From Bradyrhizobium macuxiense (GTDB taxonomy: Bacteria > Pseudomonadota > Alphaproteobacteria > Rhizobiales > Xanthobacteraceae), in contig NZ_LNCU01000036.1 in assembly GCF_001542415.1 (NCBI RefSeq), positions 172,570 to 236,569 on the forward strand: a stretch of DNA of 64,000 nt. The letters are read 5' to 3'. A model generated the notes under the pieces. It was given only the letters and a program-made list of their open reading frames with translations. It had not been told where the DNA came from and ran no database searches. A program made the position numbers and the translations under genes. Shown here piece by piece: positions 24,866 through 58,993 of this stretch. The number at the start of each line of letters is the position of its first letter. Position 1 is the stretch's first letter.

Positions 24866-24881
24866 CACCGCGGGCGTCTCG

Positions 24882-25910: not shown

Positions 25911-25920
25911 GACTCCGGCG

Positions 25921-28308: not shown

Positions 28309-28315
28309 AGAGATT

Positions 28316-28360: not shown

Positions 28361-28387
28361 CGATTTCGAGGAAGGGAGGGAGGCAAT

Positions 28388-28843: not shown

Positions 28844-28847
28844 TGCC

Positions 28848-40639: not shown

Positions 40640-40834
40640 ATGGATGACCAGCGAGGGCGGTGCGACAACTTAGCCGGAGTTTCGGGCGCGGGAAGTCATC
40701 CGCAGTCGTTGCGTGGTTACGGCAACATCCTGTTGCGGCCGCAACGCAAGCAGCCGCTATGGGACGATCTGAGCCAGACCCGCGATTGGGCCGACTTTGC
40801 GTCGATCATGGCGGTGGCGAGCCAGATATTATGA
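40640..40834 (+). CDS. Hypothetical short reading frame (64 residues)
   Basis: An ATG after GCGAGGGTGCC opens a 64-codon frame that ends six bases inside the convergent carboxylase gene. I do not recognise the product, which has no signal or membrane segment. It fills the otherwise empty 206-base gap after the CoA-transferase, and contains a perfect 14-bp palindrome, GTTGCGGCCGCAAC, at 40732-40745. It may be a chance frame. Confidence 0.25.
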   Translation: MDDQRGRCDNLAGVSGAGSHPQSLRGYGNILLRPQRKQPLWDDLSQTRDWADFASIMAVASQIL

Positions 40835-42871
40835 CGCGCCGCCCGCGGTCCGGTCGACCGCTGGCACAACCTGCTCGGCATCGACAACTGCGACCACGGC
40901 ATTGCGCTCGACCGTATCGCCAGCCTTGACGTGAATTGCGCTCACGATGCCGTCGACCTTGCTGGCGGGGCGAAATTCCATCTTCATGGATTCCATTACG
41001 ACCACCGCATCGCCCGCCTTCACGGGATCGCCGACGGCAACATTGACGTTCAGAACCACGCCGGTCATCGGCGCTCGCAACTCGCCGCTGACCTCGGCTG
41101 TCGCGCTGATGTAGCCGAGATAGGGCATCGCCGTCATCGCGTGGTGCTTCGGTCGGTCCTGAACGAAGATCGTCTGGTCCTGCTGCTGGATGCGAACGGT
41201 CCGGTGCTGCGATCCGGTCACAGCCGAGAACACGTGGTCTCCGAGGCTGGTCAGCCTGACGCGGATGCGTGCGTCATCGATGCCAATCAGCATTGAGCCG
41301 TCGGGAGCAAGCGGAGCAAAGCGAATCTCCGCTTTCGCGCTCCCGCTCTCGAGGTGCAGGATCGGAATTGGCGACAGCCCGTCGTCGCCCGATCTCATCT
41401 GCCATCCGGTGAGCTGCCGCATCTGCCAGGGATCGGTCGAAGCAGTCGGGCGGCTCTGCAGCAGCCAGAAGCAGGCCGCCATCGCCAGCGCTTCGACGTC
41501 GAGCGCCCGGTTCTTTGCCGTGAGAAACTCAATATCGTCGTCGATCAGGCGGGTATGGAATGTGGCCGTCCGCGTCGAGGGCAGGGCAATCAGGCGCCTG
41601 AGAAAGTCCCGGTTCGTCGTTAGGCCAAGGACCGATGTGTCGTCCAATGCCGTTGCCAGCCGGTCAAGCGCTGCGTCGCGCGTGTCCGCATGGGAAATCA
41701 GCTTGGCCAGCATCGAATCGTAGTGCGGCGTAACCACCGAGCCGGTCTCGATTCCGGTCTCGACGCGGATGTTGCCGTCCGGAAACTGGACATGGGCGAG
41801 CTCGCCGGTCGCCGGCAAGAAGCCATTGTCAGGATCCTCGGCGCAGAGGCGCGCTTCGACTGCGTGGCCGCGGAGACGGACCTGATCCTGCGTGAAGGGC
41901 AGCCCTTCGCCAGCCGCGATCCGGAGCATGAGCTCGACGATGTCGACGCCGGTCACCATTTCCGTGACGGGATGCTCCACCTGCAAGCGTGGATTGACTT
42001 CGAGGAAATAGTAGCTGTCGCCGCTGACAATGAACTCGACGGTACCGACGCCGCGATATTTCAGGCGTTGGCCTAGGCGGACCGCGTCGGCCAAGATGCC
42101 TTTGCGGATCGGATCGGGGAGGTTGGCGGCCGGCGCTTCCTCGATCAGTTTCTGATGGCGGCGCTGCAGTGAGCACTCGCGCTCGAACACGTGGACCACA
42201 CGGCCCTTGCCGTCGCCAGCGATCTGCACCTCGATGTGCCGGCCGCGCTGGACCAGCTTCTCGACAATGAGGCCGGCATGGCCAAAGGCATTCTTGGCCT
42301 CGCGCATGGCGGACTCGATCTCCTCGTCGAGCCGGTCCAGCGACGTGATCGCGCGCATACCCTTGCCGCCGCCGCCGGCCGCAGCCTTGAGCATGACGGG
42401 AAGACCGAGTTCTCTGACGATCCGCGCGATCTCGCTCGGATCTTCGCTTAGCGCTGTGCTGCCCGGGACGGTCGGCACATCAGCGGCTGACGCTTCGGCC
42501 TTGGCGGAGGCCTTGTCGCCGAGCCGTTCGATCGTCTCCGGTGTGGGGCCGATGAAGATCAAACCGGCGGCCTCCACCGCGCGGGCGAAAGCGGCGTTTT
42601 CCGCGAGGAAGCCAAAACCTGGGTGTATGGCCTCCGCGCCGGTGGCTCGGGCCGCGGCGATGACAGCTTCAATGTTGAGATAGCTTTCGGCCGCCGGCGC
42701 GTCGCCGATCTCCACGGACTCGCCGATCAGCTTGACAGCGAGAGAACCGGCGTCCGCGGAAGAATGGACACCGGCAACGGCGATGCCGAGCCGCCTGCAG
42801 GTGCGGGCGATCCGGCATGCGATCTCACCGCGATTGGCGATCAGGATCTTCTTGAACACAGGGCCTCCCAT
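40829..42871 (-). CDS. Acyl-CoA carboxylase biotin-carboxylase/BCCP subunit
   Basis: The 680-residue alpha subunit has a biotin carboxylase domain (FKKILIANRGEIACRIARTCRRLGI at the start, the ATP loop GGGGKGM, EVNPRLQVEHPVTEMVTG) over about residues 1-450, a linker, and a C-terminal carrier domain with biotinyl Lys630 in MESMKMEF. The layout is that of 3-methylcrotonyl-CoA, geranyl-CoA or propionyl-CoA carboxylases. Its ATG overlaps the stop of the carboxyltransferase gene by one base. The substrate depends on the other subunit. The frame runs upstream to 43207, but that part is shadow. Confidence 0.93.
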   Translation of the reverse strand: MGGPVFKKILIANRGEIACRIARTCRRLGIAVAGVHSSADAGSLAVKLIGESVEIGDAPAAESYLNIEAVIAAARATGAEAIHPGFGFLAENAAFARAVEAAGLIFIGPTPETIERLGDKASAKAEASAADVPTVPGSTALSEDPSEIARIVRELGLPVMLKAAAGGGGKGMRAITSLDRLDEEIESAMREAKNAFGHAGLIVEKLVQRGRHIEVQIAGDGKGRVVHVFERECSLQRRHQKLIEEAPAANLPDPIRKGILADAVRLGQRLKYRGVGTVEFIVSGDSYYFLEVNPRLQVEHPVTEMVTGVDIVELMLRIAAGEGLPFTQDQVRLRGHAVEARLCAEDPDNGFLPATGELAHVQFPDGNIRVETGIETGSVVTPHYDSMLAKLISHADTRDAALDRLATALDDTSVLGLTTNRDFLRRLIALPSTRTATFHTRLIDDDIEFLTAKNRALDVEALAMAACFWLLQSRPTASTDPWQMRQLTGWQMRSGDDGLSPIPILHLESGSAKAEIRFAPLAPDGSMLIGIDDARIRVRLTSLGDHVFSAVTGSQHRTVRIQQQDQTIFVQDRPKHHAMTAMPYLGYISATAEVSGELRAPMTGVVLNVNVAVGDPVKAGDAVVVMESMKMEFRPASKVDGIVSAIHVKAGDTVERNAVVAVVDAEQVVPAVDRTAGGAS

Positions 42872-44478
42872 TACATCCGGAGCACGCCGAAATTCGTCGG
42901 CTGAGGCGGCAAGCGGCCGGCAAGATCGAGCAGCAGGCTCATCACCTGACGCGTTTCCAGCGGGTCGATCACCATGTCGCACCAGGTGTTGCGCGCGAAA
43001 TTGTAAGCGTTGGCGAATTCCTCGAATGTCTTGCGGGTCGGCGCCATGTAGGCTTCGCGCTCCGCCTCGGTCCAGCTGGTACCCTCGCGCTTGTGAACCT
43101 CGTCGCGGACCATCGCGAGTGTGGTGGCGGCTTGATCCGGCCCCATGATGGCCGAGCGACCGTTCGGCCACATCATCATGGCGTTGGGCTTGAAGGCGCG
43201 GCCGCACATTGCGAGATAGCCGGCGCCATAGGCGTTGCCGATGATCAGGGTGTATTTCGGCACGTTGGCGCTCGCCATCGCCGTGATCATCTTGGCCCCG
43301 TCCTTGGAGATGCCGCCTTCCTCCGCCTCGCGGCCGACCATGAACCCGGTGACATCTGCGATGAACAGCAGCGGAATGTCGCGCTTGCAGCAGAGATCGA
43401 TGAAGTGCGTCGCCTTCAGTGCGCTTTCGGAAAACAGCACGCCGTTGTTGCAGAGAATGCCGACCTCGAAGCCCATGATCTTGGCGAACCCTGTGATCAG
43501 GGTGTCGCCATAGAGTGGCTTGAACTCGTGGAATTCGCTGCCGTCGACCAGGCGTGCGAGAATGTCGCGATTGCTGGTGGGGATGCGGGGATCGGAGCTG
43601 ATCAGGCCGTAAATCTCCTTCGGGTCGAACGCCGGCTCGCGTGTCGGCGCTACTGTCCGGCGCTGCGCCGGGATTTCACCCAAATTGGCCACAATGTCGC
43701 GGGTGATCGCGACGGCGTGCCCGTCATTCTCGGCCAGGTGATCGGTGACGCCGCTGATGCGGCTGTGCATCTCGCCGCCGCCGAGCTCCTCGATACCGAC
43801 CTCTTCGCGGGTTGCGGCATAGACCAGCTGCGGGCCGCCGAGGAACATCGCGCCCTGATTGCGCACGATCACGGTTTCATCGCACAGCGCGGGCATATAC
43901 GCGCCGCCCGCCGTCGAGGGGCCGTGGACGATCGCGATCTGCGCGATTCCTTCGCCGGACATCCGAATCTGGTTGTAGAAGATCGAGCCGAACTGTCCCT
44001 CGTCGGGAAAGATGTTCGGCTGATCGGGCAGGTTGGCGCCACCCGATTGCACCATGGTGATGCAGGGCAGGCGATGCTGCCAGGCAAAGCGCTGGGCGCG
44101 GACGTGCTTCTTGCAGGTGATGCCGTAATAGGTGCCGCCCTTCACGGTCGGCTCATTGGCGATGATCATGCAAGGGCGACCCTTGATGATGCCGACGCCG
44201 GTGATGATGCTGCCACCCGGCGGCACACCCTCATACATCCCTTCGCCGGCGAGCTGGCAGAACTCGAAAAACGGCGATCCCGGATCGATCAGCGCGGCGA
44301 TCCGCTCCCGCGGCAGCAGCTGATTGCGTTCCTTGTGCAGTCGCCGCGCGCGCTCGGGGCCGCCGAGCGCTGCCTCGGCGCGGCGCCGGTAGAGATCGGC
44401 GATCCGCGCCTCGTAGGCCTGCCGGTTGCGGCGATATTCCTCGCTGCCGACAGCTACATCTGACTTCATCATTGTCAT
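42871..44478 (-). CDS. Acyl-CoA carboxylase carboxyltransferase subunit
   Basis: The 535-residue beta subunit has the two crotonase-fold halves of the MCC/GCC type: NEPTVKGGTYYGITCKKHVRAQ, VQSGGANLPDQPNIFPD, HGPSTAGGAYMPALCDE in the first and FIADVTGFMVGREAEEGGISKDGAKM, GNAYGAGYLAMCGRAF in the second. EELGGGEMHSRISGVTDHLA matches methylcrotonyl-type carboxyltransferases. It carries CO2 from biotin to an acyl-CoA. Both subunits and the acyl-CoA dehydrogenase form one operon. No HMG-CoA lyase is present, so a leucine pathway is not shown. Confidence 0.92.
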   Translation of the reverse strand: MTMMKSDVAVGSEEYRRNRQAYEARIADLYRRRAEAALGGPERARRLHKERNQLLPRERIAALIDPGSPFFEFCQLAGEGMYEGVPPGGSIITGVGIIKGRPCMIIANEPTVKGGTYYGITCKKHVRAQRFAWQHRLPCITMVQSGGANLPDQPNIFPDEGQFGSIFYNQIRMSGEGIAQIAIVHGPSTAGGAYMPALCDETVIVRNQGAMFLGGPQLVYAATREEVGIEELGGGEMHSRISGVTDHLAENDGHAVAITRDIVANLGEIPAQRRTVAPTREPAFDPKEIYGLISSDPRIPTSNRDILARLVDGSEFHEFKPLYGDTLITGFAKIMGFEVGILCNNGVLFSESALKATHFIDLCCKRDIPLLFIADVTGFMVGREAEEGGISKDGAKMITAMASANVPKYTLIIGNAYGAGYLAMCGRAFKPNAMMMWPNGRSAIMGPDQAATTLAMVRDEVHKREGTSWTEAEREAYMAPTRKTFEEFANAYNFARNTWCDMVIDPLETRQVMSLLLDLAGRLPPQPTNFGVLRM

Positions 44479-44487: not shown

Positions 44488-45651
44488 CTAATAGCTGCGC
44501 GGCAAGCCCATGACGTGCTCGCCGATATAGTTGAGGATCATCTCCCGATTCAACGGCGCGGTCTTCAGCAGACGCACGAATGGGTAGAGGTCGAAGATGC
44601 CATATTCCTTGGTGAAGCCGTTGCCGCCGTGGCACTGGATTGCGGTATCCACGGCCTTGATGCCGGCATCTGCTGCGGCGAGCTTGGCCATGTTGGCGAA
44701 CTCGCCGGCTTCGCGGCCTTGATCGAAAGTCCATGCCGCCTTCAGCGTCATCAGCGAGGCCAGCTCGACATCGGTGCGCGCACTCGCGAGCGGATGCTGC
44801 AGGCCCTGATACGCACCGATCGGCACATCGTTAAAGACCTTGCGTTCGCTTGTGTAGGCGACGGCGCGGTTGAGCGCATAGCGCCCAAGGCCGCAGCAGA
44901 TCGAGCCGACCAGGATGCGCTCGGGATTGAGGCTCTTGAACAGGATGCCAAAACCCTTGTCGATTTCGCCGACGACGTCCTCCGGGCCGAGTTCGACCTC
45001 GTCGAAGAACAACTGCCATTGGGTCTCGGGCGCGGGGATGCTCACGGGGATGTACTGCTTCTGGACGCCCTTGGCCTTCAGGTTGACGATGAAGAGCGTG
45101 AAGCCTTCCGTCTTGCGCTGCACTTCTGTGTGCGGCGTGGTGCGGGCCACGACCAGCGCATAGTCCGAGCCGTCGGCGTCGGTGATGAAGGTTTTCTGTC
45201 CGCTCAGTGCAAAGCGGTTGCTGCGCCGTTTCGCGACAGTTGCGGTGCGGATGGTGTTGGTGCCCGCATCAGGCTCGGTGATCGCGAAGCAGAAGCGGGT
45301 GTTGCCCCGGCATGCATCGGGCAGATAGCGCCTCTTCTGGGCCTCGGAGCCGTACTTGGCGATAAAGCCGAGGCTCATCGCGGCACCGACGACGAGGTTC
45401 AATAGCGGGATGCCGTTGTTGGAGAGACCTTCGAGAAACAGGTGCATCTCCACCATGCCCTGGCCGGCGCCGCCATATTCCTCCGGCACCATGGTTCCGA
45501 CAAAGCCGTCCTCCGCGATCTGCCGATAGAGGGCTTCGGGGAAGACGCGCTTCTCGGCGCATTCCATCCAGTATTTGCGGTCGAACTTCCGGGCGATCGC
45601 GTCGCCATAGTCGAGAACCTGCCGCTGCTCCTGCGTGAGATCGAAGTCCAT
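44488..45651 (-). CDS. Acyl-CoA dehydrogenase
   Basis: The 387-residue FAD enzyme has the family fold: LTQEQRQVLDYGDAIARKF helix start, CFAITEPDAGTNTIRTATVAKR at the flavin site, LNPERILVGSICCGLGRYALN, and QCHGGNGFTKEYGI near the C-terminus. The C-terminal segment APLNREMILNYIGEHVMGLPRSY is typical of a group tied to branched or terpenoid acids. It makes an alpha,beta double bond in an acyl-CoA. GGAGGACGC precedes the ATG, and an operator palindrome lies upstream. It leads the carboxylase operon. Confidence 0.93.
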   Translation of the reverse strand: MDFDLTQEQRQVLDYGDAIARKFDRKYWMECAEKRVFPEALYRQIAEDGFVGTMVPEEYGGAGQGMVEMHLFLEGLSNNGIPLLNLVVGAAMSLGFIAKYGSEAQKRRYLPDACRGNTRFCFAITEPDAGTNTIRTATVAKRRSNRFALSGQKTFITDADGSDYALVVARTTPHTEVQRKTEGFTLFIVNLKAKGVQKQYIPVSIPAPETQWQLFFDEVELGPEDVVGEIDKGFGILFKSLNPERILVGSICCGLGRYALNRAVAYTSERKVFNDVPIGAYQGLQHPLASARTDVELASLMTLKAAWTFDQGREAGEFANMAKLAAADAGIKAVDTAIQCHGGNGFTKEYGIFDLYPFVRLLKTAPLNREMILNYIGEHVMGLPRSY

Positions 45652-45787: not shown

Positions 45788-46207
45788 TCAGATATTGCGG
45801 AACCGCGGCAGGGTCACCTCGTCCGTGACCTTTTCGAGGGCGAGCTCGACCGGCATGTCGAAGGTCACTTCATCAGGAGGCCCGCCGGTATAGGTGCTGA
45901 TCATCCGCGGCCCTTCCTCCAGCTCGACCAGCAAGACAGCGTAGGGCAAGTCGGCCTTGAACGCCGGTCCGGGGGCGCGGTGAACGACGCTGAAAGAATG
46001 CACCTTGCCGCGTCCGCTGGCGGGACGATGTTCCAGCTCTTCGCGCCCGCAGGCGCGGCAGGTGGCCTGCTGATAGTATTGCACGTTCCCGCAGGCCACG
46101 CAGTGCTGAAGAAGCAGTTGGCCATCACGCAGGCCGCGCCAGAAGGCGGCCGTGTCGGCGTCGGGCGTTGGCAGCGGCTTGCGGGCAGCTTCCTCGGCTG
46201 AGATCAC
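45788..46207 (-). CDS. DUF35 zinc-ribbon/OB-fold protein
   Basis: The 139-residue protein has a rubredoxin-like zinc ribbon, Cys-Val-Ala-Cys then Cys-Arg-Ala-Cys about 13 residues on (near residues 37-53), and an OB fold ending VTLPRFRNI. Such proteins bind acyl-CoA and work as partners of thiolase-fold enzymes, for example ChsH2 with Ltp2 in steroid side-chain degradation. The GTG start overlaps the stop of the thiolase-like gene (GTGA), supporting a complex between the two. Confidence 0.9.
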   Translation of the reverse strand: MISAEEAARKPLPTPDADTAAFWRGLRDGQLLLQHCVACGNVQYYQQATCRACGREELEHRPASGRGKVHSFSVVHRAPGPAFKADLPYAVLLVELEEGPRMISTYTGGPPDEVTFDMPVELALEKVTDEVTLPRFRNI

Positions 46208-47385
46208 AGCGTGTCCTCCGTGCCGAGCACCGTCGTGGCGTTGGTGGCAAACCCGGCCCCGAGACTATGGACCAGGCCAAGTTTTGCACCCTCGACCTGG
46301 CGCGGTCCGCAGTCGCCGCGCAATTGCGCGACCACCTCGTGGAAGTGAAACAACGATCCGGGAATGCCGGAATGGGCGAACGAGAGCAGGCCGCCATGGG
46401 TGTTGGAGGGAATCTTTCCGCCATAGGTCATCTGTCCGTCGGCGACGAAGCGTCCACCTTCTCCCTTCGGGCAGAAGCCGAGGTCTTCCAGCATCATGAT
46501 CACGGTGCCGGTGAAGCAGTCATAGACGCCGGCGACATGCATGTCGTCGGGAGCATAGCCTGCCATCTTGTAGGCGCGCCGGCTGGACTCAACGGCGCCC
46601 GTCACCGTCAGCGACGGCATCAGGAAGATGTGTTCGTGCGTGTAACATTCGCCGCCCCCGAGGATGTAGACGGGCTTCTCGATGCCGAGTGTCTTGGCGC
46701 GCTCCGCAGACATCAGAATGAACGCAGCACCTCCGTCCGAGATCAGCGAGCAGTCGAGCTTGTGATACGGCGTCGTCACCATGCCGGAGTTGAGGACGTC
46801 GTCTACCGTGATCGGCGTGGTCTGCTGCGCGCCCCGGGTCAGCGAGGCGTGGCGGCGCTGGGTGACCGCGACCTTCGCGAGTTGTTCGGGCGTGGTGCCG
46901 AACTCCTTCATGTGCCGGTGCGCCGTCATGGCGAAGGTGTTGGCGACGGGAATGCCGAACGGCATCTCGTATTGCTGGTCGCGGCTTTCCGTTAGGGATC
47001 GGAGCGCGAGGTCCGGGGTGAGACCGGTCATCAGGCTGTCCGCGGCCACCACGAGCACGACCTCTGCCAGTCCGCTACAGATTGCCGACGCGCCGATATT
47101 GAACATCGTGGCCGCCGTCGCGCCGGAAACCTGTAGGTTGTTGGAGAAGGTCGGCTGGATGCCGAAATACTCGCTGAAAGCCACGCTGAAGCGATGGAAG
47201 GGCGAGGCCATGGCGTGGCTCGACAGAACGCCGTCGATCTGGCTCTTGTCGATGCCGGCGTCGGCGACAGCCTTCTTCGCCGCATCGGCCGCGAGCCATA
47301 GCGGACTGCGGCCGGGGACCTTGCCGACGGGCGATTGCCCGATCCCGACGATGGCGACCTTGCCGCGGAGAGTGTCCTTGTTCAT
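46204..47385 (-). CDS. Thiolase-fold protein lacking the nucleophilic cysteine (SCP-x/Ltp-like)
   Basis: The 393-residue protein belongs to the lipid-transfer thiolase group: KVAIVGIGQSPVGK at the start, SLISDGGAAFILMS in the middle, NTHGGLLSFAHSGIPG and LGLVHSLGAGFATNATTVLG near the end. At the position of the usual nucleophilic Cys it has Thr90 (QVSGATAATMF). That, with the coupled DUF35 gene, resembles Ltp2-type retro-aldolases, which cut beta-hydroxyacyl-CoAs without forming a Cys-acyl intermediate. The activity is therefore more likely aldol cleavage than thiolysis, but this is inference. Its ATG overlaps the synthetase stop. Confidence 0.88.
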   Translation of the reverse strand: MNKDTLRGKVAIVGIGQSPVGKVPGRSPLWLAADAAKKAVADAGIDKSQIDGVLSSHAMASPFHRFSVAFSEYFGIQPTFSNNLQVSGATAATMFNIGASAICSGLAEVVLVVAADSLMTGLTPDLALRSLTESRDQQYEMPFGIPVANTFAMTAHRHMKEFGTTPEQLAKVAVTQRRHASLTRGAQQTTPITVDDVLNSGMVTTPYHKLDCSLISDGGAAFILMSAERAKTLGIEKPVYILGGGECYTHEHIFLMPSLTVTGAVESSRRAYKMAGYAPDDMHVAGVYDCFTGTVIMMLEDLGFCPKGEGGRFVADGQMTYGGKIPSNTHGGLLSFAHSGIPGSLFHFHEVVAQLRGDCGPRQVEGAKLGLVHSLGAGFATNATTVLGTEDTL

Positions 47386-48917
47386 GGCGCGACCTTGGTG
47401 AGGCGGGTTTCGAGCTCGTGGCGCTGCACCTTGCCGCTGGTCGAGCGCGGGAAATCGGCGAAGTCGATGAAGTGAAACTGCCTCGGACGCTTATAGCCGG
47501 CGAGATCGCGCCGGCAGAGCTCGACGAGCTCGGCCTCCGTCAGGCTGTCGTCCCGGCATGCAACGAACGCCACCGGCACCTCGCCCCATTTGGCATCGCG
47601 TGCCCGCACCACGGCGACCTCCGTGATCCGCTTGTCGGTCAGGAGGACGCGCTCGATCTCGGCGGGGTAGACGTTCTCGCCGCCGGACTTGATCATGTAT
47701 TTGGCGCGGTCGACGAAATCGAGCGTGCCGTCCTCATTGCGGCGGAACACATCGCCCATGTGGAACCAGCCGCCGCGGAAGTCGCGCGCATTCACCTCGT
47801 CCGCCTGCCAATAGCCGGAAAATACCGTGCCGCCGCGGATGGCGAGCTCGCCCGGATCGCCGAGTGACACCTCATTGTCGGCGGGATCCACCAGCTTGAC
47901 CTCGCAGAAGGCGTTCTGGCGTTTCGAGAGCCGCGTCGGCGCGACGCCGATCGGGATGAGATCCCGCGTGGCGGGCGGTAGCCCGGTCTCGGTCGAGCCG
48001 AAGCTGTTGAGATAGGGCGCCTTGATCAGTTCGGTCGCCGCCGCAATCGCATGCGGCGGCACCAGGTCGGCCATCGCACCGCAGACGCGTACGCCCTTTG
48101 CGATTGTTCGTTCCGCTCGCATGCTCTCGACCAGTGCTTCCACCATGCCGGGGATCAGCACCAACCAACCGATGTGATGCGAGCTGATTGCCTGCAGCAA
48201 AGGTTCGATCCGGAAGCCGTCGATGATCACGACCGTGCCACCGCGCAAGAGCGTGGCGAGGCCGTGGTCGGTGGAAGCCATGTGGAACAGCGGAGCCCAG
48301 GCGACGAAGCTCTCGGATGTCGTGATCCCGAGTTCCGACGTGAAAACCAACGCGCGCATGATCATCGCGCGATGCGAGATCACGGCACCCTTGGGCAGGC
48401 CCGTGGTTCCGCTGGTGTAAAGGATAACGAGCCCGTCCTCGGGCTGGGCCGTCGGAGGAATGCCGCGAGCATCCTGCTGTGCGAGAAGGCGTTCATACTG
48501 CGGGCCCAGCTCGATTTGCGGACAGGAGGGTCGGGATCCCAGCGAAGCCGCCAGATCGGGTTCGACGACCAGCAATTTGGGCGAAACAAGCTCGACGCAG
48601 TAAGCGAGCTCGCGTGGCGACAGGCGCCAGTTCAGGCATGCGGTGATGCCGCCGAGATTGGCGGCGGCGAGCTCGATCTCGAAATATTCGGGGCGGTTGC
48701 GGGAGAGCAGGGCGACCCGGTCGCCGCGCTGGAGTCCCTGCGCCGCCAGCATGGCGCTGGCGCGGCTGACGCGGTCGAGAAGTTCGCCGTAGCTGATGCG
48801 CCGGTCGCGGTATTCGATGGCGATCGATCCCGAATTCAGCGCAGCATACGTGCTGAAGAGTGCGCCGACGGTCGCGATGGAGCCCGCGCGCGCGGGAAGG
48901 TTATCCTGGCCGGTCAT
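47382..48917 (-). CDS. Acyl-CoA synthetase (AMP-binding)
   Basis: The 511-residue ligase has the ATP motif LYTSGTTGLPKGAVISH, the NSFGSTETG loop, WFHMGDVFRRNEDGTLDFVDRAKYMIKSGGENVYPAEIE, and the catalytic C-terminal Lys in RSTSGKVQRHE. It makes an acyl-CoA from an acid, ATP and CoA, probably the entry step for this operon. Its start lies 85 bases from the perfect palindrome at 49002, which it shares with the divergent hydratase gene. Confidence 0.92.
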   Translation of the reverse strand: MTGQDNLPARAGSIATVGALFSTYAALNSGSIAIEYRDRRISYGELLDRVSRASAMLAAQGLQRGDRVALLSRNRPEYFEIELAAANLGGITACLNWRLSPRELAYCVELVSPKLLVVEPDLAASLGSRPSCPQIELGPQYERLLAQQDARGIPPTAQPEDGLVILYTSGTTGLPKGAVISHRAMIMRALVFTSELGITTSESFVAWAPLFHMASTDHGLATLLRGGTVVIIDGFRIEPLLQAISSHHIGWLVLIPGMVEALVESMRAERTIAKGVRVCGAMADLVPPHAIAAATELIKAPYLNSFGSTETGLPPATRDLIPIGVAPTRLSKRQNAFCEVKLVDPADNEVSLGDPGELAIRGGTVFSGYWQADEVNARDFRGGWFHMGDVFRRNEDGTLDFVDRAKYMIKSGGENVYPAEIERVLLTDKRITEVAVVRARDAKWGEVPVAFVACRDDSLTEAELVELCRRDLAGYKRPRQFHFIDFADFPRSTSGKVQRHELETRLTKVAP

Positions 48918-49019: not shown

Positions 49020-49074
49020 AGAATTGATAGGCCGAACGCGCCGTGCGCGGCGAGGGAACAACGAGGAAATGCCG

Positions 49075-49884
49075 ATGTCCAACCGCTACGCCGCCTACAC
49101 CCGCCTCAAGCTCGATTATCCCGCCGAACGGATCCTGCGGCTGACCTTCGACCGGCCCGAGACCTACAATTCGGTCGATGCCGAGACCCACACGCAGCTC
49201 ACCAACATATGGCGGGATATCAACGACGACCCCGGCATCAACGCGGTCATCGTCACCGGCGCCGGCAAGGCGTTCTCGGCCGGCGGCGACTTCGAGCTCA
49301 TCAAGAGCATCCTCGACAATCCGGTCGCGCGGATGGCGACCTGGAAGGAAGCGAAGGATCTCGTCTACAACGTCATCAACTGCAACAAGCCGATCATTTC
49401 TGCGATCAACGGCGTCGCCGTCGGGGCCGGTCTCGTGGTCGGCATTCTCGCCGACGTTTCGATCTGCGGAAAGTCGGCGCGGATCGTCGACGGTCATACC
49501 AGGCTCGGCGTCGCCGCCGGTGACGTGGCCTGCATCATCTGGCCGCTGCTGTGCGGGCTTGCCAAGGCCAAGTACTATCTTCTGACCTGCAAGCCGCTGT
49601 CGGGCGAGGAGGCCGAGCGCATCGGGCTGGTGTCCCTGTGCGTCGAGGACGCCGATCTGCAGAAGACTGCCCTCGAGACGGCGCAGGATCTGGCGACCGG
49701 TGCGCAAAGCGCGATCCGCTGGACCAAATACGCGCTCAACAACTGGTTGCGCGTCAACGGACCGCTGTTCGATACGTCCACCGCACTGGAACTGCTGGGG
49801 TTCAGCGGTGTGGAAGCGCGGGAGGGGCTGGCTTCGCATCTCGAAAAGCGCAAGCCGTCATTCCCGCCGGATTGCCCGATCTGA
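49075..49884 (+). CDS. Enoyl-CoA hydratase/isomerase
   Basis: The 269-residue crotonase has RPETYNSVDAETHTQL, the oxyanion-hole segment VTGAGKAFSAGGDFELIKS, and KPIISAINGVAVGAGLVVGILADVSICGKSARIVDGHTRLGVAAGD. At the second catalytic glutamate position of true hydratases the sequence looks changed (HTRLGVAAGD), so isomerase or hydrolase activity is possible. I place the start at 49075, with GAGG eight bases upstream; ATG 49069 is close behind. It is divergent from the synthetase operon across operator site 2. Confidence 0.9.
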   Translation: MSNRYAAYTRLKLDYPAERILRLTFDRPETYNSVDAETHTQLTNIWRDINDDPGINAVIVTGAGKAFSAGGDFELIKSILDNPVARMATWKEAKDLVYNVINCNKPIISAINGVAVGAGLVVGILADVSICGKSARIVDGHTRLGVAAGDVACIIWPLLCGLAKAKYYLLTCKPLSGEEAERIGLVSLCVEDADLQKTALETAQDLATGAQSAIRWTKYALNNWLRVNGPLFDTSTALELLGFSGVEAREGLASHLEKRKPSFPPDCPI

Positions 49885-49887: not shown

Positions 49888-51840
49888 TCAGCTCGCCGCG
49901 AGCTGCTGCCGGATCTGCGCGATCGCTTCGGGATTGGCCAACGCCGAGAGATCGCCCGGATCCTTGTTCTCGAACACGGCGCGCAGCACCCGGCGCATGA
50001 TCTTCATGTTGCGCGTGCGCGGCAGGTCGTCGACCAGGACGATCCTCTCGGGGCGATAGGATGCGCCCATGCCGCGCACGAGTGCGGCTGCGAGCTCATC
50101 GGCCAACCCGTTCGTGCCGGCGATGCCCGGCATGGGCACGCAGGCACAAACGATCGCCGAGCCCTTGACGGGGTGCGGAATGCCGAACACGGCCACCTCC
50201 GCGAGCTTGCCTGTTCCGATCAGGATGCCTTCGAGCTCCGCCGGGCCGGTGCGCTTGCCGGAAATCTTGATCGTGTCGTCCGACCTGCCGAGAATGTAGT
50301 ACAGGCCGTCATGTCCGCGCATGGCGAAGTCGCCGTGCACCCAAAGGCCGGGAATTGTGCTCCAGTAGCTTTCTAGGTAGCGCGCGTCGGCCTTCCACAG
50401 GCTCTTGGTCAGGCCGATCGAGGAGTGTCGGAGCACCAATTCGCCGACCTCGCCGTCCGCCACGCGCTTTCCGGACATGTCGACGATGTCGGCGCCCATG
50501 CCGAGCGCCGGGCGCGAAAACGCGCACGGATTCATCGGATGGTTGGATGTGCCGGTGAAGATGCAGCCGCCGATCTCGGTGCCTCCGGAGATATTGATGA
50601 TGGGGATGGCCTTCTTGCAGACATGCTCGAAGAACCAGGTCCAGGGCGTTTCGGTCCAGGCCTCACCGCCCGAAGCCGTGATCCGCAGGCTGGAGAGGTC
50701 GTATTTGTCGACCTCGTCGCCATAGCGCATCAGGCTGCGGACGATGGTGGGCGATACGCCAAGATAGGTCACCCGGTGATCGGCGATCAGGCGCCAGAAG
50801 CGTCCTGTCTCGGGGTAATCGGGCGTGCCTTCCGCGATCAGCAGGCTGCCGCCGGCAAAGCTCGGAATGCAGGCGCACATGGCGCCGACCATCCATCCCA
50901 TGTCGCTGAGGAAGAAGAAGCGGTCGGATGCCTTGAAGTCTCCGCAGATAATGATGTCGCGTGTTACCATAGTGCCAATGAAGCCGATATGGGTCCACAC
51001 GCATCCCTTCGGCTCGCCTGTGGTGCCCGACGTGTAGAGCAGGATCGCGGGATCTTCGGTCTGCATCTCGACGGTTGCGATGTCGCTCTCGGCCGTAGAC
51101 ACGATGTCGTGCCACCAGAGATCGCGGCCACGGCGCATCGGCGTCTCGATATCGAGACCGTCACGTTCGACCACGATCACATGGCGCACGCCGGGAACAG
51201 ACTCCAGTGCGACATCAAGCACCGGTTTGAGCGGGGCGGCAGTGCCCCGGCGCCAGGTTCCGCTCGCTGTTATCACCGCCTTGGCACCGCCATGGTTCAG
51301 CCGGGCCTCGATCGGGCTTGGACCAAAGCCCGAGAACAGCGGCATGACGATCGCACCGATCTTGAGGATGGCGAAGAACGTCACAAACGTCTCGGGCAGG
51401 TTGGGCATGTAGATGGCCACCACATCGCCCCGGCCGAGGCCGAGCTTGCGCAGCGCGCTCGCCAGCCGGTCGACCTCGGCGGCGAATGCCGCGTAGGTCA
51501 GGCTCCGCTGTTCGTTGCTATCTTCGCCTTCCCACACCAGGAAGGTTTGATCCCAGACCGGCGTGCCGCGATGCTTGTCGAGGCAGTTGAGGACGATATT
51601 GGTGGTGCCGCCGACGCACCAGCGCGCCCAGGGCTGGCCGCGCGACAGGTCAAGCATCTGATCATATTGCCTGTAGAACCTGACATCGCAGAACCGGAAC
51701 ACTTCCGCCATCAGCCATGCGGGGTCCGCATCCGCCTTGGCTGCCAATGCGCCGTAGTCCGGCTGGCCGGTGGCGCGCAGAAAGGCGGTGAGGTTGCTTT
51801 GTTCCACCAGCTCCGGCGGTGGCGTCCATAGATATGACAT
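49888..51840 (-). CDS. Acyl-/acetoacetyl-CoA synthetase-like AMP-binding enzyme
   Basis: The 650-residue enzyme is of acetyl-CoA-synthetase length: an N-terminal ACAS-like region with DLSRGQPWARWCVGGTTNIVLNCLDKH, the ATP motif LLYTSGTTGEPKGCVWTH, the NISGGTEIGGC loop, and the C-terminal Lys in PRTRNMKIMRRVLRAVF. Acetoacetate, acetate or propionate are typical family substrates; the true one is unknown. ATG 51840 is preferred over an in-frame TTG at 51849. It is convergent with the first hydratase and divergent from the second across operator site 3. Confidence 0.88.
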   Translation of the reverse strand: MSYLWTPPPELVEQSNLTAFLRATGQPDYGALAAKADADPAWLMAEVFRFCDVRFYRQYDQMLDLSRGQPWARWCVGGTTNIVLNCLDKHRGTPVWDQTFLVWEGEDSNEQRSLTYAAFAAEVDRLASALRKLGLGRGDVVAIYMPNLPETFVTFFAILKIGAIVMPLFSGFGPSPIEARLNHGGAKAVITASGTWRRGTAAPLKPVLDVALESVPGVRHVIVVERDGLDIETPMRRGRDLWWHDIVSTAESDIATVEMQTEDPAILLYTSGTTGEPKGCVWTHIGFIGTMVTRDIIICGDFKASDRFFFLSDMGWMVGAMCACIPSFAGGSLLIAEGTPDYPETGRFWRLIADHRVTYLGVSPTIVRSLMRYGDEVDKYDLSSLRITASGGEAWTETPWTWFFEHVCKKAIPIINISGGTEIGGCIFTGTSNHPMNPCAFSRPALGMGADIVDMSGKRVADGEVGELVLRHSSIGLTKSLWKADARYLESYWSTIPGLWVHGDFAMRGHDGLYYILGRSDDTIKISGKRTGPAELEGILIGTGKLAEVAVFGIPHPVKGSAIVCACVPMPGIAGTNGLADELAAALVRGMGASYRPERIVLVDDLPRTRNMKIMRRVLRAVFENKDPGDLSALANPEAIAQIRQQLAAS

Positions 51841-51915: not shown

Positions 51916-52701
51916 ATGTCCGACCAGGAACCGGTGCGCTACGAGATCAGCGAAGGCGTCGCAACTGTGACGATCGATCGGCCGGAGCGCAAGAACGCGC
52001 TCTCCGTCGAAGCGATGAACGGCTTGACCGAGGCTTGGGCACGGGCGGAGGCTGATGCTGCAGTGCGCGCGATCATCCTGACGTCGACCGATTGCGGCGT
52101 GTTCTGTGCCGGCCTCGACCTCAAGCAGGCGGCGGAGATCAGGGCACGGGACGGCGTCGATATCCTGACCCTGATGCGGGACCCGATGCAGACCGCGATG
52201 CGGAAAGTGACGAAGCCGATCGTCGCGGCCATGACCGGCTCGCTGATGGCCGGTGGCATGATGCTCGCGCTGAAATCAGATCTTCGGGTTGGCCTGAGCG
52301 GCAGCCGAGCCGGGATCACCGAGGTCAAGATGGGGCGGGGCACGCCGTGGTCCGTGCCCATGCTCTGGATGTTGCCGCAACCATTGATGATGGAATTGGT
52401 GCTGACCGGCGAGACAATGCCGATCGAGCGTCTGGCCGCGCATGGCTTCCTCAACTACCTGGAGCCGACGCCGGATGCCGTGCGCGCCCGCGCCTTGCAG
52501 TTGGCGCGCGCAATCGTCGAGGGCGCGCCGCTGTCGGTGAAGGCCGCCAAGGCAACTGTGCTCGCGGCGATGGATCTCGGCTACGAACGAGGCGCGATCG
52601 AAGGCGACCGCCTGCATGTCGAGGTCTACGCCAGCCGGGATGCGATCGAGGGGCCGCGCGCCTTCGCCGAGAAGAGGAAGCCGAACTGGCAGGGACGCTA
52701 G
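51916..52701 (+). CDS. Enoyl-CoA hydratase/isomerase
   Basis: The 261-residue crotonase has RPERKNALSVEAMNGL, the oxyanion segment STDCGVFCAGLDLKQAAE, and KPIVAAMTGSLMAGGMMLALKSDLRVGLSGSRAGITEVKMGRG; the ITEVKMG segment carries the second catalytic Glu position. It hydrates or isomerises an enoyl-CoA in the pathway. It differs clearly from the hydratase at 49075. The TetR gene converges on it with a nine-base gap. Confidence 0.92.
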   Translation: MSDQEPVRYEISEGVATVTIDRPERKNALSVEAMNGLTEAWARAEADAAVRAIILTSTDCGVFCAGLDLKQAAEIRARDGVDILTLMRDPMQTAMRKVTKPIVAAMTGSLMAGGMMLALKSDLRVGLSGSRAGITEVKMGRGTPWSVPMLWMLPQPLMMELVLTGETMPIERLAAHGFLNYLEPTPDAVRARALQLARAIVEGAPLSVKAAKATVLAAMDLGYERGAIEGDRLHVEVYASRDAIEGPRAFAEKRKPNWQGR

Positions 52702-52710: not shown

Positions 52711-53394
52711 TTACTTCTTGATGCCGTCAAACACCATCAGCTGGGTTCGCCGGGCAAGCTTGAGCACGTCGTCCTTGCTGTCGAGCCTGAACCACTCGAC
52801 GGTCCAGTTGAGTGCGCCAATGACGAAGATGCGAAGCGGCTCGATCTCGATGTCGGCGCGGATCTCGCCGGCTTTGCGCGCGTCGAGGAACAGCTTGTCC
52901 CAATAGCGCGCGTAGGCGCGCCGCAGCGGCCGATGCGGCTTCTTCAGATGCTCCTGCAATTGGCCGTAGATGCGGATGTTGGCCGAGGTGAAGTCACTGG
53001 ATTCCAGCAGCGCCACGAGATGAGCTTCGATCGCAAGCTCGATGCGCCGCCGGTAGGTTGCCTGACCGGCTCCTTTGACGGCGGCCTTCACCGATTCGAA
53101 GACGTGGCGTAGGCCGCGATCGAGGATCTCGTCCAGGATCGCTTCCTTGGAATCGAAATAATAGTAGATGCTGCCGGCTTCGATGCGGGCGGCGGCCGCG
53201 ATCTGGCGCAGGGTGGTTGCCGAGAAGCCCTGCTCGCGAAAGAGCTTGGCCGCCGAGTGCAGGATCAGGTTTCGGGATTTTTCAGCCTTCGTGGGAAGAC
53301 TTGCTTCCTGCTTCGCCACAGTGGCCTTCGGCGCACGCGGCCTGGAAGGCGCGTTGCCCTTTGATGCATTGCGCTGGCGGCCGCTGGAGTCCAA
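52711..53394 (-). CDS. TetR-family transcription regulator
   Basis: The 227-residue regulator has a basic, Pro-rich leader of about 35 residues, then the TetR helix-turn-helix (ILHSAAKLFREQGFSATTLRQIAAAARIEAGSIYYYFDSKEAIL, about residues 44-87) and a helical ligand domain like that of acyl-CoA-sensing FadR/KstR2-type repressors. It sits at the edge of the acyl-CoA cluster, whose promoters hold three matching palindromes. No copy lies before its own gene, so it may not repress itself. The ligand is probably a pathway acyl-CoA. Confidence 0.92.
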   Translation of the reverse strand: MDSSGRQRNASKGNAPSRPRAPKATVAKQEASLPTKAEKSRNLILHSAAKLFREQGFSATTLRQIAAAARIEAGSIYYYFDSKEAILDEILDRGLRHVFESVKAAVKGAGQATYRRRIELAIEAHLVALLESSDFTSANIRIYGQLQEHLKKPHRPLRRAYARYWDKLFLDARKAGEIRADIEIEPLRIFVIGALNWTVEWFRLDSKDDVLKLARRTQLMVFDGIKK

Positions 53395-53535: not shown

Positions 53536-54531
53536 TTAAGCGATCGTCTTGAGATACAGGCTGGGGTCGAAATACTTGCTCGCGGGGGTGAAGTCCTTCA
53601 CGCCTGCATTGGCCATGAAGAAGTCGGTCGACTGCTGCAGCCAGTTCGTGACGGTGCCGTCCGAATAGAGGCGCTTCCAGTCCCGCGACGTGAACATCTT
53701 CTGGGCCTTGAAGGACTCGTTGATGTCGCTGAGCGGGGTCTGGCTGTAATGGCCCTTCTGCAGCTTCTCCATGGCCTCGGTGCTGTTCGCGACGATGTAA
53801 TCGTTGGCGTCGGCCCAGCCGCGGATGAGCTTGGCGAGCGTCTCCTTGTTCGGCTCGTAGTAGTCGTTGGCCGCGGCCCAGCCGCCGATGATGGCGGCCT
53901 GGGGGTAATAGGCCGATGCGTCGGCAAGCTTGACTGCGCCCGGCACCTTGTCGCGCACCGTCACGTTGAAGGGGACCCAGAGCGCGACGGCCGGCACCGC
54001 GCCGGAGACGAAGGCCGTCACGGCAGCCGGCATGGTCTGGTTGACGAGCTCGACATCCTTGGGATCGATCTTGTTGGCGCGCAGCGCCTTGTCGAGGAAC
54101 ACATGCGCGGTGGTCCCGGTCGCGGTCGCGATGCGTTTGCCCTTGAGGTCCGCAAAGGACTTGATGCCTTGATCGGAACGCACCCACAGCTGGGCGGTCG
54201 CAACCTCAATGTCGTTGATCAGGAACACCTTGCCCTGTCCCCGGGCCGGGAAGTTCGAGAGCACCGCGCCGGTGGCGAGAACGTCGAGGCTGCCGCCGAT
54301 CAGCGCCTGGAAGATTTCGAGGCCGGTGTTGAACTGGCGCAATTCGAGATCAAGGCCCTCTTTCTCGAAACTGCCCCGGTCCATGCCGGTCCAGATCTGG
54401 CCGTCGACCGCGACCGTGTGCAGATAGCCGACACGAAGCTTGGTCCGGGCCTGCGCGATTGCGGGCGCGGCCGCCGCGAATGTCCCCAGGGCGAGACCGG
54501 CGGTCGTGGTCAGGAATTGTCGGCGATCCAT
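53536..54531 (-). CDS. ABC transporter substrate-binding protein (taurine/sulfonate/nitrate type)
   Basis: The 331-residue protein starts at ATG 54531, with GAGGAG seven bases upstream. DRRQFLTTTAG at residues 2-12 is a possible twin-arginine signal, with a cut after AIAQA. The mature part, LRVGYLHTVAVDGQIWTGMDRGSFEKEGLDLELRQF and SFADLKGKRIATATGTTAHVFLDKAL, fits the SsuA/TauA/NMT1 group. Ligands of this group range from sulfonates to pyrimidines, so the substrate is open. ATPase and permease genes lie just upstream on the same strand. Confidence 0.9.
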   Translation of the reverse strand: MDRRQFLTTTAGLALGTFAAAAPAIAQARTKLRVGYLHTVAVDGQIWTGMDRGSFEKEGLDLELRQFNTGLEIFQALIGGSLDVLATGAVLSNFPARGQGKVFLINDIEVATAQLWVRSDQGIKSFADLKGKRIATATGTTAHVFLDKALRANKIDPKDVELVNQTMPAAVTAFVSGAVPAVALWVPFNVTVRDKVPGAVKLADASAYYPQAAIIGGWAAANDYYEPNKETLAKLIRGWADANDYIVANSTEAMEKLQKGHYSQTPLSDINESFKAQKMFTSRDWKRLYSDGTVTNWLQQSTDFFMANAGVKDFTPASKYFDPSLYLKTIA

Positions 54532-54555
54532 GGCGTTACTCCTCAATATCTATAA

Positions 54556-55365
54556 CTATTCCGAGAATGACGCTGGGCGCATCTGCGCCTGCTGCGCACG
54601 GTATTCGTCCATTACGAGCTGTCTGATGTGGCTACGGAGCTCGCCGAACTCGGGGCGCTCCTCGATGGACTCGTCGCGCGGATAGGGGAAGGGGACCTCG
54701 ATGATCTCCTTGATCTTTGCAGGCCGCGCCGTCACGACGACGATGCGTGACGCAAGGTAGATGGCCTCTTCGACGGAGTGGGTGATCAGCATGACCGTCT
54801 TGCCCTCGGCGGCTAGCACCTTGAGCAACAGGTTCTGCATGTTGGCCCGCGTCTGGGCGTCGAGCGCGCCGAACGGCTCGTCCATCAGAAGGAACTGCGG
54901 CTTGACCGCATAGGCGCGGGCGATGGCAAGGCGCTGGCGCATGCCGCCCGAGAGATGTTTCGGATAGGAGTTGGCGAAATCGGCGAGGCCCATCAGGCTG
55001 AGGTAATGGTCGCAGATCGCATCGCGCTCCGAATCCGGAACACGGTTGGCCTTGAGCTTCAGGCCGAATGCGATGTTCTGCTTCACCGTCAACCATGGGA
55101 AGACGCCATACTCCTGAAAGATGACACCACGTTCGGGGCCGGGACCGGTCACGGGAGCGCCGTCAAACAGCACCTTTCCGGTCGTCGGTTTCTGGAAACC
55201 CGCAAGCATGCTCATCATCGTGGTCTTGCCGCAGCCGGACGGGCCGATCACGGCAATGAAGTCGCCGTCGTTGATGTCGTAGGAGACATCCTCGACGACA
55301 TTGAGCCGGCCTTTGGGCGTCTCGAAGGCAAGCGAGACGTGGTCGAACTGCGCGCGTTTCTTCAT
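54556..55365 (-). CDS. ABC transporter ATP-binding protein (TauB/SsuB type)
   Basis: The 269-residue ATPase has Walker [10 protein letters not shown], signature LSGGMRQRLAIARAYA, Walker B FLLMDEPFGALDAQTR and switch His in LITHSVEEAIYLASR, all typical of the taurine/nitrate/sulfonate group. Its ATG overlaps the permease stop (ATGA). It energises import of the ligand caught by the binding protein encoded next. Confidence 0.93.
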   Translation of the reverse strand: MKKRAQFDHVSLAFETPKGRLNVVEDVSYDINDGDFIAVIGPSGCGKTTMMSMLAGFQKPTTGKVLFDGAPVTGPGPERGVIFQEYGVFPWLTVKQNIAFGLKLKANRVPDSERDAICDHYLSLMGLADFANSYPKHLSGGMRQRLAIARAYAVKPQFLLMDEPFGALDAQTRANMQNLLLKVLAAEGKTVMLITHSVEEAIYLASRIVVVTARPAKIKEIIEVPFPYPRDESIEERPEFGELRSHIRQLVMDEYRAQQAQMRPASFSE

Positions 55366-56132
55366 GACATTGCCCGTTCCTGCCAGACCAGAAGGCGGGC
55401 GCTGATCTTGCGCAGGATCAGGTCCATGATCAGGGCAATGACGCCGATGCAGATGATACCGACATAGATGACGTCGAGCAGGAAGTAGGTCGATGCGTTC
55501 TGGATCATGGCGCCAAGTCCGCGCTGGGCCGCGATCAGCTCCGAAGCCACCAGGGTCGCCCAGGCGACACCGAGCGCTACCCGCAGCGCGGTCAGGATAT
55601 GCGGCACGGTGAGGGGGATGATGACCTTGCGGAAGATTTCGAATTCGTTGGCACCGAGCGTCTTCGCGACGCGGATGTAGAGCGGCGTGATCTGCGAGAC
55701 GCCCTCATACATCACGATTACGCCGGAGAAGAACGCGGCGTAGAACAGGATGACCAGCTTGGCGAGCTCGTCGACCCCGAAATAGACGATCACAAGCGGG
55801 ATCAGCGCGATCGGCGGCAGTGCGCGGAAGAAGTTGATCATCGGGTCGGCGAAGGTCCGCGCCGGGCGATACCAGCCGAGCAGGAAGCCGACCGGGACGG
55901 CGACCAGGATTCCAAGGACTACGCCGAGCACCACGCGACGCGAGGACACATAGATGTCGAGCAGCAGGTTCTCGCGCGTCAGGAGTTCGTAGAACTTGGC
56001 TGCGACCTGGTGCGGTGCGGGAATCAGCGAGGCGTTGACGAACCCGCTCCAGCGGACAGCGTACCAGAGCAGGATGGCGCCGACCCACGGCGCAAGTCCG
56101 AGCAACAGGCGTCTCACGACCTGTCCATTCAT
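55362..56132 (-). CDS. ABC transporter permease (TauC/SsuC type)
   Basis: The 256-residue inner-membrane protein has about six helices and the SsuC-type coupling segment TLGANEFEIFRKVIIPLTVPHILTALRVALGVAWATLVASELI. It is first in a permease-ATPase-binding protein operon and divergent from the enolase-superfamily gene. The pore is probably a homodimer. Confidence 0.92.
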   Translation of the reverse strand: MNGQVVRRLLLGLAPWVGAILLWYAVRWSGFVNASLIPAPHQVAAKFYELLTRENLLLDIYVSSRRVVLGVVLGILVAVPVGFLLGWYRPARTFADPMINFFRALPPIALIPLVIVYFGVDELAKLVILFYAAFFSGVIVMYEGVSQITPLYIRVAKTLGANEFEIFRKVIIPLTVPHILTALRVALGVAWATLVASELIAAQRGLGAMIQNASTYFLLDVIYVGIICIGVIALIMDLILRKISARLLVWQERAMS

Positions 56133-56240
56133 TCCGACGCTTCCTACCTTGCAATTGTAGTTGATGCCGGCAAATTCATATTATAAATAGGATGACCATA
56201 CAAGGACAATTTCACCGCGCTCGGCGTGCGGGTTTCCGGC
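56133..56240. promoter_or_regulatory. Divergent promoter region between transporter and racemase-like gene
   Basis: The gap contains an AT-rich core, ATATTATAAAT at 56178-56188. On the minus strand TTGTCC followed after 18 bases by TATAAT fits a promoter for the transporter operon. On the plus strand TTGATG at 56161 with TAAATA 17 bases on is a weaker match for the racemase-like gene. I see no clear operator for the GntR regulator encoded downstream. Confidence 0.4.
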
Positions 56241-57368: not shown

Positions 57369-57369
57369 C

Positions 57370-58965: not shown

Positions 58966-58993
58966 TCAGATATCCTGACGCGGGGAGCGTGTG

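Follow-up and report, generated by a model that had tools for sequence, protein, structure and literature searches.

What reaction can a thiolase-fold protein catalyze when it lacks the cysteine that thiolases use as nucleophile, and what is its role beside a carboxylase? These questions are raised by a locus of Bradyrhizobium macuxiense in the window, which here means the whole 64,000-nucleotide stretch that was analyzed (contig NZ_LNCU01000036.1, C36:172570-236569, of an 8.7-Mb, 137-contig genome). The locus encodes a thiolase-fold protein, THIO, and a small DUF35 partner. Analysis of the pair indicated that retro-aldol cleavage of a beta-hydroxyacyl-CoA is its most likely chemistry, which we hold with good confidence. 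That THIO and DUF35 form one enzyme of this kind, acting in window-type clusters in a course linked to a methylcrotonyl-CoA carboxylase (MCC), is the overall explanation that we favor with moderate confidence. Residues were compared with those of the aldolases CtSal (PDB 9myr) and Ltp2 (TcLtp2, PDB 6ok1) over 99 clade rows, comprising the window, 18 loci (L017-L034) and 80 loci (L064-L143), of which ten are shared, so that 89 distinct places are represented. The features of the pair are as follows.

46204..47385, minus strand: THIO, Cys-less thiolase-fold putative CoA-thioester aldolase, 393 aa (Pfam, PDB phmmer, AlphaFold2 model)
47122..47124, minus strand: Gly88 codon, thiolase nucleophile Cys position (Gly in 99/99 clade rows)
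46522..46524, minus strand: Tyr288 codon (YDCF motif), proposed base, equivalent to CtSal Tyr302 and TcLtp2 Tyr294 (99/99 clade rows, alignment)
46516..46518, minus strand: Cys290 codon, proposed acid, equivalent to CtSal Cys304 (99/99 clade rows, alignment)
46372..46374, minus strand: His338 codon, in the place of CtSal Gln352 and TcLtp2 Tyr344 (99/99 clade rows, alignment)
45788..46207, minus strand: DUF35 partner, zinc ribbon Cys36-Cys39-Cys50-Cys53 and OB fold, 139 aa, GTG start (PF12172, PF01796)

THIO matches the Pfam family Thiolase_C_1 (PF22691, 181.5 bits) and, weakly, Thiolase_N (34.8 bits), and a phmmer search of the PDB returned 4u4e (268 bits), CtSal (196 bits) and Ltp2 (182 bits), with thiolases also matched. 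The partner open reading frame (ORF) matches zf-ChsH2 and OB_ChsH2_C in Pfam, and ChsH2 (6ok1_B, 78.8 bits) and 9myr_B (70.1 bits) in the PDB; its four-Cys zinc-ribbon motif is kept in 98/98 loci. The GTG start of the DUF35 gene and the TGA stop of THIO share 4 nt (GTGA), and a start codon is possible at the same overlap in 98/98 relative loci. The family matches of both ORFs, the empty nucleophile position described below and this junction bear out the initial annotation, which had read the locus as a Cys-less thiolase-fold gene whose stop codon is overlapped by a zinc-ribbon/OB-fold gene. The AlphaFold2 model of THIO (single chain, pLDDT 94.2, 54 aligned sequences) leaves no doubt about the predicted thiolase fold. 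The best folds for this model are 4u4e, CtSal, the Trypanosoma brucei protein TbSLP, Ltp2 and DUF35/SCP2-type thiolases, with Foldseek TM-scores, normalised to the model, of 0.85 (4u4e), 0.89 (CtSal), 0.90 (TbSLP, 5ab6_B) and 0.87 (Ltp2), and VIA-align Z values of 57.4 (TbSLP), 55.8 (acetoacetyl-CoA thiolase 6esq), 54.4 (CtSal), 53.3 (4u4e) and 52.7 (Ltp2).

In the sequence alignment, thiolases (paralogues L014 and L016, PDB 6hsj and 7yvy) carry their nucleophile Cys at the position of Gly88 of THIO, two residues before Thr90, which the initial annotation had mistaken for the nucleophile position. No other Cys aligns there, though Cys290, the second thiolase Cys, is kept. Tyr288 replaces the His of the HDCF motif, which is present in 6hsj, 7yvy, L014 and L016, while the aligned thiolases also have His at position 338. 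The resulting fingerprint at positions 88/288/290/338 is G-Y-C-H in the THIO clade, G-Y-C-Q in CtSal, G-Y-H-Y in Ltp2, G-Y-S-H in 4u4e and C-H-C-H in SCP2 thiolase; Leu333 and His338 of THIO align with Gln347 and Gln352 of CtSal. The combination of Tyr-Cys and His338 occurs in none of the five aligned PDB sequences and is present in L035, a 43% relative. According to the CtSal paper (PMC12329534), the Y302F mutation abolished CtSal activity, the C304A, C304S and C304H mutants had undetectable activity, and CtSal has Gly at the thiolase nucleophile place; in the authors' view, it is incapable of thiolytic cleavage. By analogy with these residue results, thiolase activity is not expected of THIO but aldolase activity is, and it probably works like Sal. 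The proposed likeness to Ltp2-ChsH2 holds for the fold, the DUF35 partner and the first catalytic tyrosine (Tyr288), and fails at the remaining active-site positions, where Cys290 and His338 stand for the Ltp2 His and Tyr344; the retro-aldolase claim itself survives as the best reading, as a putative enzyme of the thiolase-fold/DUF35 kind and not as an Ltp2. In addition, His64, Arg65, Arg129 and Arg135 are each found in at least 97% of the clade rows vs 0, 1, 4 and 0 of 19 other Cys-less rows, which is only suggestive of a conserved basic patch for a distal carboxylate.

The same genome encodes four more Cys-less THIO paralogues (L197 on C60, L198 on C107, L199 on C40 and L200 on C11), each with an adjoining DUF35-like match and with Ser or Ala at position 290, which are further candidates of the DUF35-coupled aldolase kind. 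In a tree of 42 rows chosen from 122, the THIO clade (support 100/100) is separate from the group of CtSal, Ltp2 and paralogue L015 (91/80), from the 4u4e group and from the thiolases, and the four Cys88 rows split from the other 38 rows at 100/99. CtSal, the sole Sal sequence in the tree, thus does not fall within the THIO clade; several reference branches are long and their joins are possibly false, so the deeper placement is unsure. At the level of the family, matches with E <=1e-60 occur in 151/296 genomes. Nineteen places, including the window's own, show 83-100% identity to THIO, the next listed match has 49%, and no paralogue in the own genome exceeds 41%. Scanning named genomes yielded 132 stretches with 110 relatives, the best 80 of which were kept, so that more distant contexts lie outside the counts. 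These 80 relatives are 71-88% identical and come from Alpha-, Beta- and Gammaproteobacteria, one metagenome-assembled genome titled Deltaproteobacteria and one actinobacterium, including Bradyrhizobium and Afipia (the nearest named relatives), Noviherbaspirillum, Polaromonas, Hydrogenophaga, Tepidiphilus, Cycloclasticus, Paraconexibacter and others. A DUF35 relative is present in 80/80 of these loci, so the pairing is not due to chance. Plasmid records gave 145 matches at E <=1e-50, all below 60% identity.

The neighborhood of the pair consists of the following genes.

47382..48917, minus strand: ACS1, acyl-CoA ligase (PF00501)
44488..45651, minus strand: ACAD, acyl-CoA dehydrogenase (Pfam; PDB 1ws9, 161.5 bits)
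42871..44478, minus strand: CT, divergent MCC-type carboxyltransferase (PDB matches, motif alignment)
40829..42871, minus strand: BC-BCCP, biotin carboxylase (BC) with biotin carrier domain, approximate start (Biotin_carb_N/C, Biotin_lipoyl)
49069..49884, plus strand: ECH1, PRK07327/EchA15-like crotonase-fold protein, divergent to the operon (416.9 bits vs a cut-off of 292)
49888..51840, minus strand: ACS2, acetyl/acetoacetyl-CoA-synthetase-like ligase with a GGTE pocket motif (PF00501, ACAS_N)
51916..52701, plus strand: ECH2, crotonase-fold protein (PF00378)
52711..53394, minus strand: TetR-type regulator (NCBIfam TetR-family matches, all under cut-off)

On the minus strand, ACS1, THIO and DUF35 follow one another with a 4-nt overlap at each junction (ATGA, then GTGA); ACAD follows after a 136-base gap and CT after a further 9-base gap, with BC-BCCP directly behind CT. 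The adjoining BC/CT pair is the most telling neighbor, and it was absent from the initial annotation, which had listed a synthetase, a dehydrogenase and hydratases; of these, the synthetase, the dehydrogenase and genes of the enoyl-CoA hydratase family are indeed nearby, with ECH1 lacking both hydratase Glu and ECH2 one of them. CT scores highest against AccD1 (4q0g, 606 bits), human MCC (8j4z, 603 bits) and 9tps (584 bits, deposited as a propionyl CoA carboxylase), and lower against geranyl-CoA carboxylase (5ikl, 428 bits) and propionyl-CoA carboxylase (1vrg, 254 bits). Assignment of CT as a geranyl-CoA carboxylase was rejected on these whole-sequence scores (428 bits vs 5ikl, 606 vs AccD1).

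Relatives of the window proteins (at least 45% identity) recur in the 80 loci, with DUF35 in 80, ACS2 in 49, BC in 34, ACS1 in 32, CT in 32, ECH1 in 30, TetR in 19, ACAD in 17 and ECH2 in 17; full 10-kb flanks are available in only 57/80 loci, so these are lower bounds. At E <=1e-12, CT is found in 38/80 loci (at >=60% identity in 32 of the 38), including 29/30 Bradyrhizobium/Afipia-type loci, all at >=60% identity (exception, L084). The set L046-L063, which shares ten loci with the 80, has it in 17 of 18. The rough chance expectation is about 0.02 CT per 21 kb, as judged from seven other CT matches in the 8.7-Mb own genome. CTs of at least 60% identity also occur in other arrangements in Tepidiphilus, Xenophilus and Cycloclasticus, and three non-rhizobial copies (L111, L142 and L143) are 65-66% identical and on the same strand as THIO. 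In Cycloclasticus (L142), two dehydrogenase-like (the second by eye), one metallo-beta-lactamase-like, two dehydratase-like and one ligase-like gene point the same way as the contiguous CT, BC, THIO and DUF35 genes. The CT arrangements of L102, L105 and L115 look like one inherited arrangement, and the L115 copy is closest to MCC-type entries and 9tps.

Several further features of the neighborhood were recorded. In some relatives, a second CT copy (68-69% identical to the window CT) lies on the opposite strand between DUF35 and ACAD (e.g., L066, 11616-13292). A nitroreductase-like gene, so called from Pfam on the L066 copy, lies beside or near THIO in 23/80 loci (L066, L069, L070, L072-L075, L092 and 15 non-rhizobial loci), and none was noticed in the window ORFs that were read. 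Pfam had no match for a 313-aa ORF lying upstream of THIO in L131. Beyond the cluster, window positions 53536-59716 hold taurine-type ABC transporter, enolase-superfamily-like, GMC-oxidoreductase-like and GntR-like genes (names by eye); L046 alone of the 18 loci L046-L063 shares, at high identity, the transporter genes together with the beginning of the enolase-like gene. Elsewhere, positions 24783-29771 hold deoxyribose-phosphate-aldolase-like, 824-aa double aldehyde-dehydrogenase-like and ribokinase-like ORFs (by eye), perhaps a cluster for nucleoside or sugar catabolism.

Comparison with ordinary MCC operons revealed what the pair may replace. No match to 3-hydroxy-3-methylglutaryl-CoA (HMG-CoA) lyase was found in the window or in any of the 98 THIO loci (88 distinct, many with shortened flanks), while the same query was positive in three ordinary MCC operons (L194, L195 and L196), which are arranged ACAD-CT-BC-HMG-CoA lyase in the own genome (L194, at C72) and in genome G281 (L195), and CT-BC-HMG-CoA lyase in G112 (L196). 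In 10/12 genomes, a strong HMG-CoA lyase match is located 2-3 kb from the ordinary MCC CT (the exceptions being G027 and G135; in G236, among the ten, this CT is split in two pieces). Ordinary CTs share 51-55% identity with the THIO-linked CT. The lyase is thus absent beside THIO yet near the ordinary MCC CT, so that THIO-DUF35 stands where HMG-CoA lyase would be expected, and it may do the same job. Tentatively, then, a 3-hydroxy-3-substituted-glutaryl-CoA may be cleaved in window-type clusters by the pair instead of by HMG-CoA lyase. It is more tentative still that a thiolase-fold/DUF35 aldolase displaced the lyase in a second, divergent MCC-type pathway, with cleavage by Tyr288, Cys290 and His338 and re-activation of the product by ACS2. 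Leucine degradation by the THIO cluster is unlikely, given the ordinary ACAD-CT-BC-HMG-CoA lyase operon of the own genome and the CT and lyase that lie near each other elsewhere in 10/12 genomes.

If the mechanism follows that of CtSal, Tyr288 would take the proton from the beta-hydroxyl with the help of Cys290 and probably of His338; the bond between C-alpha and C-beta would then break, and Cys290 would protonate the CoA enolate. His338 may tune Cys290 in this reaction, and DUF35 is predicted to dock on THIO and shape the substrate cleft. The reaction is expected to yield a carbonyl compound together with either acetyl-CoA or an alpha-substituted acyl-CoA. It is plausible that, as initially suggested, the substrate acid is branched at its beta carbon, and the linkage to an MCC-type carboxylase lends weight to this idea. 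In window-type clusters, such an acid would be activated by ACS1, desaturated by ACAD, carboxylated at the gamma position by the MCC-type CT and BC, and hydrated; THIO-DUF35 would then cut the 3-hydroxy-3-R-glutaryl-CoA into acetyl-CoA and a free beta-keto acid, which the acetoacetyl-CoA-synthetase-like ACS2 would activate. The ACS2 pocket motif GGTE resembles the GGTD of the own-genome acetoacetate ligase L188 (663.8 bits, over the TIGR01217 cut-off of 520.9), while paralogue L190 has WWQTE, the motif of acetate ligases. Judged by its sequence, ACS2 suggests a free acid product.

A number of observations weigh against the proposed enzyme or its pathway. The fold does not discriminate between aldolase and thiolase, given that a DUF35-bound true thiolase (6esq) ranks above CtSal, and TbSLP, the top fold by Z, also has YDCF without proven aldolase activity, according to PMC12329534. 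Of 18 other relatives, 8 have Ala, 6 Ser, 3 Cys and 1 Asp at position 290, with His338 in 17/18 and Tyr288 in 16/18; the frequent Ser or Ala with His338 kept implies that the chemistry of these relatives may not depend on Cys. The proposed pathway is weakest at the hydration step. Two Glu residues are catalytic in the hydratases of the crotonase fold, and the window cluster has no crotonase holding both, as ECH1 has Val or Ala, and His, at these positions in 31/31 sequences and ECH2 keeps one of the two in 18/18. A crotonase family with both Glu (f7) is present in 27/80 loci, in 22 of the 38 loci with CT and at the cluster end in 4/6 genomes checked, and not so in the own genome or G281, where the best f7 matches are 43% and 42% identical, respectively. 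ACS2 scores higher with acetate-ligase models (518 and 510 bits) than with acetoacetate-ligase models (338 and 260 bits), all under their cut-offs. The CT motif GPPLVKAATGE of ordinary copies is GPQLVYAATRE in the window, with Lys in 6/6 ordinary or other CT paralogues and Tyr, Phe, His or Glu in 21/21 THIO-linked CTs, a change that could mean an altered function. Finally, CT is present in only 9/50 non-rhizobial loci (7/34 where flanks are full), six of the nine copies being 39-43% identical and on the strand opposite THIO; its absence from most of these loci makes another substrate class possible there.

As for ECH1 itself, its invariant His and Asp (31/31) and the loss of both hydratase Glu mark it as a crotonase-fold enzyme whose reaction may be other than hydration. 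In those of the loci L046-L063 that have it, it is 90-96% identical, exceeding CT or THIO in most.

The alternative that survives best is a retro-aldolase that splits an uncarboxylated beta-hydroxyacyl-CoA into acetyl-CoA and either a ketone or an aldehyde, with the carboxylase serving another step. It would explain why CT is missing from 41/50 non-rhizobial loci (27/34 with full 10-kb flanks) though THIO stays 71-82% identical, and the characterised Ltp2 and Sal use substrates without a distal carboxylate, according to PMC12329534. We nevertheless consider it less likely than the favored explanation, as CT is retained at >=60% identity across the Bradyrhizobium/Afipia-type loci (29/30) and in Tepidiphilus, Xenophilus and Cycloclasticus, and ACS2 hints at a free acid product. 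Far less probable is a CoA-thioester decarboxylase or an enzyme forming C-C bonds by aldol addition, Claisen or Friedel-Crafts type chemistry. TbSLP, with the same YDCF, slowly decarboxylates malonyl-CoA, whereas this activity was not seen with CtSal (both from PMC12329534); PhlC and benzoylsuccinyl-CoA thiolase chains among the fold neighbors of the THIO model fit C-C bond formation, but the ligase, dehydrogenase and carboxylase of the operon fit breakdown. Slightly more doubtful still is an Ltp2 or Sal orthologue cleaving steroid or bile-acid side chains. Fold, DUF35 partner and YDC motif are shared, but THIO lies outside the branch of CtSal, Ltp2 and L015 and has no equivalent of Gln352 or Tyr344, the cluster contains a carboxylase, and all steroid models fell below cut-off with the ten cluster proteins scanned (the best being steroid-24-oyl-CoA synthetase with ACS1, 217.5/750 bits). 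Least credible is an ordinary degradative thiolase (acetyl-CoA acetyltransferase). In its favor, THIO retains Cys290 and His338, both of which the aligned SCP2 thiolase has, its best folds include a thiolase bound to DUF35, and the best NCBIfam model, PRK06158, bears that name (yet at 362 bits, below its cut-off of 421). It is contradicted by all 99 rows (99/99), which have Gly in place of the nucleophilic Cys and Tyr in place of the HDCF His.

Retro-aldol cleavage by THIO-DUF35 remains the preferred reading. In predicted fold, residues and partner gene, THIO fits the known kind of thiolase-fold/DUF35 CoA-ester aldolase, and what is new is a clade that is marked by a residue fingerprint of its own and occurs in a context linked to a carboxylase. 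The titles and abstract openings searched, which mostly left out subscription journals, contained no description of the THIO clade or of a carboxylase-linked DUF35 aldolase. The proven enzymes of this kind that we met in the literature, Ltp2 and Sal, act on steroids. If our reading is true, a widespread clade that has a carboxylase context and an active site of its own would extend thiolase-fold aldolases to other acids, many bacterial genes now called thiolase or acetyl-CoA acetyltransferase would need another name, and the HMG-CoA lyase step may have been solved a second time by an unrelated protein.

Among known systems, the bile-acid side-chain aldolase CtSal-CtShy of Comamonas testosteroni (9MYR) shares with THIO-DUF35 the fold, the DUF35 partner, Gly at the nucleophile position and the Tyr302/Cys304 dyad, but it is 34% identical, has Gln352 in place of His338, forms a branch without THIO and differs from THIO in the carboxylase neighbors of the latter. 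Its DUF35 is part of a MaoC-DUF35 protein, in contrast to the separate gene in the window, and CtShy has a Cys3His1 zinc site (PMC12329534) vs the four-Cys ribbon here. The steroid C3 side-chain aldolase TcLtp2-ChsH2 (6OK1) is similar in fold, four-Cys DUF35 partner and first catalytic Tyr, while its YDHF His and Tyr344 correspond to Cys290 and His338. TbSLP, an SCP2-thiolase-like protein (5AB4-5AB7), has the highest Z and the YDCF motif, but is 26% identical to THIO, and PMC12329534, also the source of the motif, gives it no DUF35 partner and no proven function. 4U4E, a putative thiolase of Sphaerobacter thermophilus, is the best PDB sequence match (40% identity) with Gly/Tyr/His at 88/288/338, but has Ser at 290 and belongs to another tree group; a literature search for the paper of this structure gave none. 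In the IpfD-IpfE system of ibuprofen degradation, IpfE is a DUF35 protein. The ibuprofen literature names the thiolase as giving propionyl-CoA; this likeness is by description only, and the substrate is aromatic, unlike the one proposed for THIO. HMG-CoA lyase (PRK05692 type) resembles THIO-DUF35 in the proposed reaction type and in its place next to an MCC-type carboxylase, whereas it belongs to an unrelated family, THIO having a thiolase fold, and is kept by the own genome in an ordinary MCC operon.

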